A DNA stretch of 64,000 nt from Longitalea arenae (lineage in GTDB: Bacteria > Bacteroidota > Bacteroidia > Chitinophagales > Chitinophagaceae), in the NCBI RefSeq assembly GCF_016924755.1, contig NZ_JAFFJX010000001.1:372001-436000 (forward strand), in the 5' to 3' direction. Positions 14,389 through 54,428 of this stretch are shown piece after piece; position 1 is the first letter of the stretch; each line of letters starts with the position of its first letter. Both the position numbers and the translations under genes were made by a program. The notes under the pieces were generated by a model, which worked only from the letters and a program-made list of their open reading frames with translations, was not told where the DNA came from and ran no database searches.

Positions 14389-15495
14389 TTAAAGCTTCAA
14401 TGCGTAGAGTTCCATGGCTGATTCCTTTCCTTTTAAGTCAACCAGGCCAAGACTGATCGGTTGCCAGTTCTTTAAATTGGTTTGTGCGTAAAAGTCTTTT
14501 GAAATGATCACTTTCTGGTTCAGTTCGCTGGTGGCCGAACGCAGGCGGGCGGCGGTGTTCATCGTATCGCCACTCATTGCCAGGTCTTTTTTTATGACAC
14601 CTATTTCACCAATGGTTATTTCGCCGGTATGAATGCCTGCCCTGAATTCAGGTACAATGCCATATTGTTTTTTGAAATAGTTTCTGTTCCGCTGTAACAT
14701 TCTTCTACAGTCAAGCAATGCCTGCAAACATTTTCGGTTGGCGTTTCGTTTCTTTACGATCCACGAAACCACTACTTCGTCGCCTACATATTGGTAGATC
14801 TGGCCATCGTTCTCCAGTAATGCTATGGAAATAAAATAAATGAAATCGCGAATGAACCTGAAATACTTTTTATGACCCAGCTGTTCAGCGATAGCAGTTG
14901 AATCAACCAGGTCGATGAACATAACGGTTCGTTTTTCAATCTTCGGCGTTATATAGCGGCCGGCGAGGATATCGAAGAATACGCCGGGGGAATATTTTTC
15001 ATTGACTTCAATCAATAAAATGGTGATCAGAAAAACGACCAGCCAGCGGAAGATCTGACTAACAAACAGCGAGGTCTGAAAGATCCTGTAGTAAGAAATA
15101 CCCAGCTCGGGCGTTAGCGTCTTTTTTTCAATTAACCAGATATAGGTGAAGTGCAGAATAAAATTAAGCAGAAAGGCGGCTGCTACCAGGATAACGCTTT
15201 TTATCAACAGGCCCAGCCATAAAGGAAGGTTCCTGATGAAATGCTTTAACTGGTAAATGAGCAAATAGGCCATGGCCAGGCAGATAAAAAAGATAAGGCC
15301 GAACCGCAATAGCAATACCACCCAGGCCTGCATGGCGAATGGCAGTTCTGCCTCGTCAATATGATCGCGGTAGAATCTGAACAAATACACTGCGGTATCT
15401 ATAAGCGTCCACAACAGAGCGATCACCAGCACCTGTTTCGTGCGGTATTTGCTAATAAAGCCCTGCCTGACATTTATGTGCTCAAACGGTTCCAT
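14389..15495 (-). CDS. Membrane-bound class III nucleotide cyclase
   Basis: 368 aa. Four to five hydrophobic segments (~21-40, 53-80, 93-122, 140-163) precede a class III cyclase homology domain (~185-368). Metal-binding aspartates are Asp195 (MFIDLVDST) and Asp239 (YVGDEVVVSW); transition-state Asn313 and Arg317 are in MNTAARL. The residues that usually select the base (Lys three before the GD motif; Asp/Thr three before the second G-D) are Gln235 and Ala306, so ATP specificity cannot be assumed. The start lies 4 bp after the stop of the HD/Pycsar-type effector gene, so the two are co-transcribed. It could be an ordinary adenylate cyclase or a pyrimidine or other cyclase of a Pycsar-like system. 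Confidence 0.88.
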   Translation of the reverse strand: MEPFEHINVRQGFISKYRTKQVLVIALLWTLIDTAVYLFRFYRDHIDEAELPFAMQAWVVLLLRFGLIFFICLAMAYLLIYQLKHFIRNLPLWLGLLIKSVILVAAAFLLNFILHFTYIWLIEKKTLTPELGISYYRIFQTSLFVSQIFRWLVVFLITILLIEVNEKYSPGVFFDILAGRYITPKIEKRTVMFIDLVDSTAIAEQLGHKKYFRFIRDFIYFISIALLENDGQIYQYVGDEVVVSWIVKKRNANRKCLQALLDCRRMLQRNRNYFKKQYGIVPEFRAGIHTGEITIGEIGVIKKDLAMSGDTMNTAARLRSATSELNQKVIISKDFYAQTNLKNWQPISLGLVDLKGKESAMELYALKL

Positions 15496-15499
15496 ATTA

Positions 15500-16747
15500 T
15501 CAGCTGTACGGCGAAACGTTCGAATTAATTACAGGTTGTTGCGGTTGATGTACCAGAATGGCGATCATAAAAGCAATAACTGAAATAAATAGTCCAATCA
15601 TAAATACGGTGTATGCCAGCCTGATCAGTTTGTATTTACGGGCCAGCACAACGCCCAGTTGGTGAATATCCATGATCAATGAACTGTACAAATAATCCGG
15701 GTCGCGCATCATGGTATTCATGGCCCACTGGTATTCATTCACTTTCGTTTTATAAAAATTGCCAAAGAATAAAAGATTGGTTGACTTGTTAAGAATATCT
15801 TCCCGGCTGAAATTGCCCTGCGATACTTTAGGGCGGGTGGCCATTATAGCAATAATAATGGTAGCCAGGGAAGAAGCGAGAAAAATAAATGTGGGCAGCG
15901 TCAAATGCGTATCCACTTCAATACGGCGCACGAGCACAGAAAGAATAACTGATATTATAATGGCATTTACACTGATGAGGATACTGGCTTTTCCGTCGGC
16001 CATATTGCTCAGCTCCACATGATTTTCTGACGTTAGGCGTAACATGGTTTGTATGCCTCTCGATACCAGGGAGTTTTTACGTTTAGCAGCAGCTTCGGCA
16101 TCTTCTCTACCGGGTACCAGCAAGGTTTCACTCACGTTCAAACCTTCGGTCTTGTTTATTTTCTTGTTCAGTCTTTTAATGTTCTTGTCTTTTCCTTTTT
16201 GCAATAAACCAATGCAATAAGTGGTGTAGAACTGGTGCTTTTCCAGCAGCTCAAGACTGTTCTTTTCCCAATCGAGCACCATGGTGTTCATATTGCGCAG
16301 CACCAATTCTTTCTTCATGGCTTTATTGGTCTGTTTGAAATCGGGCAAACCAAAATGATAGGTATCTGCATCGCAGATGATCATTTCCTGCAGTGTTTGT
16401 GGTGCTGGCGGAAAGCGGGTCATCCGGATGAGCGCGGCTATTTTGCTGATCAGTTCTTCATCATTTGCTTTATTACGCATGAATGCTTCCATCACGGCTA
16501 CGCTTTTTTCCTCATGATCTGCCGGGTCGGTCATCAGGTGCCCGGTATCGTGAAACCAGGCAGCCAATGTTAGTTCAAGCAGCTCTTTATCGGGTATTTT
16601 GTAATGCGATGCGATTTCATATACCCGTTCTACTACTTTTTCGGTATGCTCTAAATTATGAAATACGAGGTTTGCATTATGGTGCTGTTTAAACAATTCC
16701 TTTACATAACTTTCTGCATCAATCAGAAGGGCGTTGTAGGTTGACAT
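15500..16747 (-). CDS. HD-domain phosphohydrolase fused to a Pycsar-type TM effector domain (DUF5706-like)
   Basis: 415 aa. Residues ~1-185 are an HD domain with FHNLEHT (29-35), WFHDTGH (64-70) and CDAD (125-128), i.e. the H...HD...D metal ligands; the HNxxH and HDxxH spacing recalls cyclic-nucleotide phosphodiesterases. A linker (~186-240) leads to a membrane module, ENHVELSNMADGKASILISV (241-260), with hydrophobic helices ~254-273, 284-304 and 376-399. The LSNMADxKAxILISVNAII stretch is what I recognise as the Pycsar TM effector family (DUF5706). It lies between the 1213-aa phosphatase gene (10-bp gap) and the cyclase gene (4-bp gap). Inferred role: sense and/or hydrolyse the cyclase product and perturb the inner membrane. 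Confidence 0.8.
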   Translation of the reverse strand: MSTYNALLIDAESYVKELFKQHHNANLVFHNLEHTEKVVERVYEIASHYKIPDKELLELTLAAWFHDTGHLMTDPADHEEKSVAVMEAFMRNKANDEELISKIAALIRMTRFPPAPQTLQEMIICDADTYHFGLPDFKQTNKAMKKELVLRNMNTMVLDWEKNSLELLEKHQFYTTYCIGLLQKGKDKNIKRLNKKINKTEGLNVSETLLVPGREDAEAAAKRKNSLVSRGIQTMLRLTSENHVELSNMADGKASILISVNAIIISVILSVLVRRIEVDTHLTLPTFIFLASSLATIIIAIMATRPKVSQGNFSREDILNKSTNLLFFGNFYKTKVNEYQWAMNTMMRDPDYLYSSLIMDIHQLGVVLARKYKLIRLAYTVFMIGLFISVIAFMIAILVHQPQQPVINSNVSPYS

Positions 16748-53380: not shown

Positions 53381-53953
53381 ATGGAAGCGCTTTTGCGATA
53401 CATCCGGTCACTAACGTCTTTTTCAACCGAAAACTGGGCATTGTTACAGCCTGCACTCACTCAAAAGACATTCCGGAAAAAAGAATTTTTGCTAAAGGAA
53501 GGAACCGTATGCCGTTCGCTTTTCTTTATCGTGAAAGGCTATTGCAAAAGCTATTATGAAATAGACGGTATTGTAAAGAACACCGGTTTTTTCTTCGAAA
53601 ATGAAATAGCCACTAACGTAAGCAGTTTTGGCAGCGGGCAGAAAAGTGAATTCAATATTGCTGCCTGCGAGCCGCTAACCGCTATCATCATTGATAAAGA
53701 GAAACTTTTTGAGGCTGCAAAGAATTCAATTGAAATAGAAACCTTAGGCAGGCATTGCATCCGTTTATTTGCCACAAAGCAGGAGGAATTTGCCAATCTG
53801 TTCCAACTTTATACGCCGCAGGAACGCCTTGAATATATTGAGGCCCGGTATCCCGCCCTGCTGCAACGGGTGTCCCTCTCCCAGTTAGCCTCATTTCTCG
53901 GCGTAACAAGGGAAACATTAAGCCGCATCAGAAAACGGCGATCCCAGGTATGA
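53381..53953 (+). CDS. Crp/Fnr family transcriptional regulator
   Basis: 190 aa. Cyclic-nucleotide-binding-like domain ~15-125 (FLLKEGTVCRSLFFIVKGYCKSYYE) and C-terminal HTH 162-188 (VSLSQLASFLGVTRETLSRI). The recognition helix has Arg177, Glu178 and Arg182 in the spacing of the E. coli CRP RETVGR helix that reads TGTGA. The PFAST-type phosphate-binding motif is not clear, so cAMP binding is uncertain. A perfect TGTGA-N6-TCACA site follows its stop by 3 bp. Confidence 0.88.
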   Translation: MEALLRYIRSLTSFSTENWALLQPALTQKTFRKKEFLLKEGTVCRSLFFIVKGYCKSYYEIDGIVKNTGFFFENEIATNVSSFGSGQKSEFNIAACEPLTAIIIDKEKLFEAAKNSIEIETLGRHCIRLFATKQEEFANLFQLYTPQERLEYIEARYPALLQRVSLSQLASFLGVTRETLSRIRKRRSQV

Positions 53954-53956
53954 TTT

Positions 53957-53972
53957 TGTGACGATCGTCACA
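53957..53972. promoter_or_regulatory. Perfect CRP-type palindrome TGTGACGATCGTCACA
   Basis: 16-bp perfect inverted repeat with TGTGA/TCACA half-sites and a 6-bp spacer, the CRP consensus. It lies 3 bp after the stop of a Crp/Fnr gene and 45 bp before the VOC start, so it probably mediates control of the VOC gene and/or the regulator. Confidence 0.75.
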
Positions 53973-54017
53973 GGACAAAGTCCTGCCGCGGTCAGAATTT
54001 TGCAGAAACAATTCATT

Positions 54018-54428
54018 ATGCAAATGCTTAAGAAGATCGATGAATCAACTAATGTTATTACCTGGTTTGAAATTCCGGTAACGGATATACACAGGGCAAA
54101 AACTTTTTATGAGACCATCCTCGATATTAGAATGATCAGGCGGACAGATGGCGATGATGAAGCTGTTTTCTTTCCGCATGATCCGAATGTGATACAGGCA
54201 ACATCGGGCCGCGTAACCGGTGTGTTGTCGAAGACAGCCAGGAACAGGCCCTGTGATCACGGTACTATGATCTATATAAATGCAAGTCCCGACCTGCAAA
54301 CGGTGGTTGATAAGGTAGAAAAAGCAGGTGGAAAGATCATTGTGCCCCGGATGGCTATTCCGGCAGGCTTTATTGCCGTTATCATCGATTCGGAAGGAAA
54401 CAAAATTGGCTTACATGCCGAAAAGTGA
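54018..54428 (+). CDS. VOC (glyoxalase/bleomycin-resistance) family protein
   Basis: 136 aa from ATG 54018 (MQMLKKIDESTNVITWFEIP). A GTG 60 bp upstream would start inside the CRP palindrome and is rejected. Two beta-alpha-beta-beta-beta modules: VTDIHRAKTFYETILDIRM, then GTMIYINASPDLQTVVDKV and AGFIAVIIDSEGNKIGLHA. One metal site may be intact. Probably expressed with or under the upstream Crp/Fnr protein. Confidence 0.8.
   Translation: MQMLKKIDESTNVITWFEIPVTDIHRAKTFYETILDIRMIRRTDGDDEAVFFPHDPNVIQATSGRVTGVLSKTARNRPCDHGTMIYINASPDLQTVVDKVEKAGGKIIVPRMAIPAGFIAVIIDSEGNKIGLHAEK

Follow-up and report, generated by a model that had tools for sequence, protein, structure and literature searches.

The closest described relatives of the system considered here lie within the Crp/Fnr superfamily. 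HcpR is a member that often adjoins its target and whose palindromes, of CRP or FNR type, follow the identity of residues 180 and 181; the correlation of these residues (R180/E181) with operator type in HcpR and its relatives was reported by Rodionov et al. (PMC1274295). HcpR belongs to a different protein group from the regulator treated here, and its targets are hcp genes and nitrogen-oxide metabolism. The closest solved sequence relative of our regulator is 3DN7 of Cytophaga hutchinsonii (phmmer 4e-19), which shares its fold and short form but not the R-E arginine (the helix reads T-P-E-Y-L-S-E); the function given in its entry is that of a regulator, and nothing further.

The regulator, the palindrome and the VOC gene

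The window is a 64,000-nucleotide stretch of the Longitalea arenae genome, and the features of interest occupy about one kilobase of it:

53381..53953, + strand: Crp/Fnr-superfamily regulator of 190 amino acids, a short form that ends directly after the recognition helix (PF00027, partial HTH_Crp_2)
53909..53944, + strand: recognition helix codons, residues 177-188, with Arg177, Glu178 and Arg182 (helix in the model; R-E-R conservation)
53957..53972, no strand: predicted operator TGTGACGATCGTCACA, a perfect 16-bp palindrome (sequence; at most one mismatch across 30/30 regulator-VOC loci)
53995..54002, + strand: likely -7 promoter element GAATTTTG, consensus TAnnTTTG (constant offset in all 38 tabulated operator sites)
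54018..54428, + strand: VOC-family protein of 136 amino acids, the predicted target gene (PF00903; similar proteins 3' of orthologous regulators)

The first-pass annotation had noted a palindrome matching TGTGA-N6-TCACA between the two genes, and its position (53957-53972) and distances are confirmed: it begins 3 bp 3' of the regulator stop and ends 45 bp 5' of the VOC ATG at 54018. An alternative start, the GTG at 53958, would if used carry the VOC frame into the palindrome; the orthologous proteins start at the Met of 54018.

The N-terminal part of the regulator is a beta-roll of the cNMP-binding type (PF00027, 1e-8, 35.4 bits against a cut-off of 27.5). The match to HTH_Crp_2 is partial (20.5 bits, under the cut-off of 27, spanning 21 of 70 positions), and the structure model (pLDDT 91.8) contains the C-terminal Crp-type helix-turn-helix as helices 166-173 and 177-188, with the wing absent. 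Fold matches of the model are CRP, FNR and 3DN7, with FNR of Aliivibrio fischeri at the top in Foldseek. Arg177, Glu178 and Arg182 correspond to CRP positions 180, 181 and 185; their CRP spacing, remarked upon at first pass, is indeed present, and the three are at least 98% conserved among 43 orthologues. The two-fold symmetric TGTGA-N6-TCACA is a predicted operator that fits these helix residues. In the VOC protein the VOC/glyoxalase domain is recognized by PF00903 (1.3e-10, 42.1 bits). With respect to the glyoxalase I metal ligands (His5, Glu56, His74 and Glu122), the profile comparison with E. coli GloA, a weak match (57.5%), sets Gly131 of the VOC protein at Glu122, and the other positions align poorly.

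Conservation of the operator and its promoter spacing

A search of genome contigs returned 45 closely related regulators (65-83% identity) from Niastella, Pedobacter, Flavobacterium, Chryseobacterium, Sphingobacterium and others, with a patchy distribution (4/395 sampled Bacteroidota genomes). Regulator and VOC gene are paired in 30 loci, the window included, where the operator is exact in 28 and has one mismatch in 2; the VOC proteins 3' of orthologous regulators are 58-81% identical. Put differently, the palindrome is present 5' of the orthologous VOC genes in 29/29 other loci (at most one mismatch), a test that had been proposed with the first-pass annotation. Its claim of direct binding within a regulator-target pair is supported by this retention of the operator, with binding itself a prediction. 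The palindrome in front of the VOC gene is not a product of chance.

Further regularity is seen downstream. The TTTG of GAATTTTG begins 26 nt after the operator, and the same palindrome-to-TTTG offset recurs in 38/38 tabulated sites (the 30 regulator-VOC loci plus the first eight of the SnoaL sites described below), with TTTA or TTCG replacing TTTG in five. Across these sites the arms are constant as TGTGA/TCACA, without compensatory change, and the centre varies. TAnnTTTG, the -7 element of Bacteroidetes, ends in TTTG (PMC7366714). Given the fixed offset and the usual distance from -7 element to start, the operator centre would fall near -41.5 of an inferred transcription start, as expected for a class II activator. 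What the computation shows is that the site is conserved, that its distance from the -7 element is constant and that the parts occur together. Regulator, docking site and most likely target make up a conserved three-part unit in Bacteroidota.

The unit also appears in cassette-like settings. At L045:2820-4280, L049, L050, L051, L052 and, in part, L046, regulator, operator and VOC gene lie within attC-like borders in an integron-cassette-like arrangement; the borders are imperfect GCTAAC...GTTAGC hairpins, of which the 5' one is GTTAGCGGTCATTGTAACGGAC. Three of these loci from three genera (L045, L049 and L052) are 96-98% identical across 1.05 kb, and the transferred units of about this length contain just the regulator, operator and VOC gene. 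A copy in Parapedobacter koreensis (L084:3001-3740) is apparently broken: its regulator match is split in two and its VOC gene is reduced to the C-terminal end, and the operator is intact.

When up to one mismatch is allowed, TGTGA-N6-TCACA still occurs nowhere in the window except at TGTGACGATCGTCACA. The genome-wide search for further copies, a check proposed earlier, yielded 7 exact sites in 7.28 Mb, which is about the chance expectation, and a broad CRP-like regulon was rejected on that ground. Yet three of the 7 lie within 60 nt 3' of the stop of a cNMP-domain gene, of which the genome has 26 (expected 0.0015, P ~6e-10), so the signal is a local one. Inspection by eye revealed no conserved site 5' of the regulator of the kind that would suggest autoregulation.

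An apparent SnoaL-like target and the sister regulators

Fifteen Chryseobacterium relatives carry the regulator with neither an adjoining VOC gene nor an adjacent site, and no VOC relative was found elsewhere at E 1e-20 in the 14 such genomes searched. Operator-like sites do occur elsewhere in all 14; the common one lies 5' of an unlinked SnoaL-like gene (PF12680), with exact operator and 26-nt spacing in 14/14. This gene is present in 14/14 regulator-without-VOC genomes versus 0/21 searched genomes with the VOC pair. Among 98 sampled Chryseobacterium genomes the regulator is found in 24 (21 with SnoaL, 3 with an adjacent site), and SnoaL accompanies it in 21/21 regulator-without-VOC genomes versus 8/74 regulator-less ones, counts that are uncorrected for kinship. 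A strict tie of SnoaL to the regulator was rejected on account of these 8 exceptions, which have SnoaL and no close regulator orthologue. Operator and 26-nt spacing are both intact in 21/21 genomes with the regulator versus 3/8 without (P 5e-4 by a Fisher test, which treats kindred genomes as independent), and this is read as partial decay after regulator loss. The operator alone is exact in 7/8 of the exceptions; given this persistence, either a sister regulator may use, and bind, the SnoaL operator too or the losses are recent. The "simple regulator-target pair" of the first-pass annotation is therefore supported for the linked VOC gene and needs amending for Chryseobacterium, where the apparent target is unlinked and the operator is perhaps shared with other regulators. 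The data suggest one regulator whose operator geometry is constant although its target differs between lineages, the two targets being unrelated.

Sister regulators with different helices have different palindromes 3' of their stops. In 69 paralogue loci with a readable helix (from the L. arenae genome and from loci taken from relatives), R-E helices pair with TGTGA-type sites (7/15 members; 3/4 sequence clusters versus 0/20, P 0.002), P/A-E-T-L/I-S-R helices with TTGA-N6-TCAA sites (9/10), Q-x-S-L-S-R helices with TTTACC/TTTGCC types (5/6) and P/A-Q/P-S-L-S-R helices with TTAACC types (7/13), motif classes that were noticed and counted in the same data and hence are a description and not an independent test. 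Just 7 of the 15 R-E-helix paralogues have a matching site within 80 nt. The CRP-like reading of the recognition helix offered at first pass is backed by these pairs and by the R180/E181 correlations (PMC1274295). Several paralogues in the L. arenae genome itself have R-E-x-x-S-R helices and near-identical palindromes.

Distances from palindrome centre to TTTG in the sister units cluster at 37-38 and 60-61, and the neighbours include DoxX, aldo-keto reductase, short-chain dehydrogenase, flavodoxin-fold reductase, carboxymuconolactone decarboxylase, YceI and VOC families. Another Chryseobacterium Crp/Fnr paralogue (L183, L186, L188, L191, L196) is followed by a TGTGA-type palindrome and then a DJ-1/PfpI gene, a like layout with a different target. 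It is conceivable, though on balance doubtful, that the short Crp/Fnr regulators of Bacteroidota include a large family of autonomous modules, each made up of the regulator gene, a palindrome of its own 3' of the stop codon and then a detoxification or redox target. In such modules the recognition helix would encode the palindrome, sensing would be by cysteines or other non-cyclic-nucleotide means, and the modules would move as cassettes and exchange targets. With so many sister units, a single genome supplies a ready-made set of helix-operator pairs on which a recognition code could be tested, and local transcription control has been little studied in this group.

Proposed mode of action, possible signal and relation to known systems

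In the proposed mechanism, a dimer of the regulator would read TGTGAC-N4-GTCACA through Arg177, Glu178 and Arg182, binding just 3' of its own gene at a palindrome with its centre near -41.5 in the VOC promoter, and would recruit RNA polymerase to the -7-element promoter (class II activation). The VOC gene would be the linked target, replaced in one Chryseobacterium group by the unlinked SnoaL-like gene. Binding, activation (and not repression), the transcription start and the signal are the parts that we infer. Taken whole, with SnoaL as the alternative target and a signal other than a cyclic nucleotide, this is the best explanation and a probable one.

The regulator could instead bind the site and repress the VOC gene until a signal releases it. 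The likely promoter begins right next to the site, and repressors are common among local regulators of detoxification genes; however, the invariant 26-nt offset and the two distance classes of the sister units fit contact with polymerase, and the stretch from the operator to offset 17 holds no TTTG. The position expected for a -33 element is hence empty, a hint that the promoter depends on assistance. Repression is accordingly judged rather unlikely. Somewhat less likely again is that the site serves mainly another Crp/Fnr paralogue with an identical Arg-Glu-Arg helix and that adjacency to this regulator is incidental. The abundance of cNMP-domain genes, the R-E-x-x-S-R paralogues with their near-identical palindromes and the operators retained before SnoaL in regulator-less genomes would suit such a reading, but site, spacing and regulator travel together across genera, including in the short transferred units, and operator with spacing is better preserved where the regulator is present. 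That the palindrome, self-complementary and placed between co-directional genes, acts as an RNA hairpin or terminator is scarcely credible: no T-run follows it, its arms are fixed without compensatory change as the centre varies, and the identical sequence stands before the unlinked SnoaL gene at equal promoter distance.

As to the signal for the favored activator, the first-pass annotation had raised a cyclic nucleotide and a link to a cyclase at 14.4 kb. The cyclase is real (a class III nucleotide cyclase domain protein, PF00211, window 14389-15495 on the - strand, beside an HD-domain-like protein by eye at 15500-16747), the regulator does have the PF00027 domain, and its Ser89, the counterpart of CRP Ser83, shows 98% conservation. 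Against this, the position of the phosphate-binding Arg82 of CRP (loop aligned by eye) holds Lys in 56% of the orthologues and Pro in 23%, so that a cyclic-nucleotide ligand is not supported, and 38 kb separate the cyclase from the pair, to which nothing connects it. Some other kind of signal is probable, and a cyclic-nucleotide-responsive CRP-like activator tied to this cyclase is very improbable. All 43 orthologues have Cys44, Cys96 and Cys126, and 95% have Cys55; of the four, Cys55, Cys96 and Cys126 are rare in paralogues; in two loci a thioredoxin-fold gene lies inside the operon, between operator and VOC gene. The conservation of the four cysteines, together with this gene, hints at thiol-based sensing as a lead, and we tentatively suggest that thiol, electrophile or redox sensing via Cys44, 55, 96 and 126 may be coupled to a small VOC or SnoaL protein that handles the offending compound.

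The literature searched (including papers on HcpR, PgRsp and Bacteroides promoters, with subscription papers mostly outside its coverage) held no description of the regulator-operator-VOC unit, which is weak evidence of novelty. The unit is real, its proposed mechanism ordinary and its parts of known types, and it is apparently undescribed; an uncharacterised regulator thereby gains a testable operator and target assignment. Compared with FNR, its top structural match, the regulator has no N-terminal cysteine trio for a 4Fe-4S cluster (no Cys precedes residue 44) and carries its cysteines at 44, 55, 96 and 126, while FNR-like TTGAY palindromes adjoin those sister regulators with P-E-T-L-S-R helices. 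With E. coli CRP it shares the Arg-Glu-Arg helix spacing, the TGTGA-N6-TCACA operator, the inferred centre near -41.5 and the overall fold; it differs from CRP in the lack of a conserved phosphate-binding Arg, the absence of a wing after the recognition helix, its near-invariant cysteines and a target that is local and not global.
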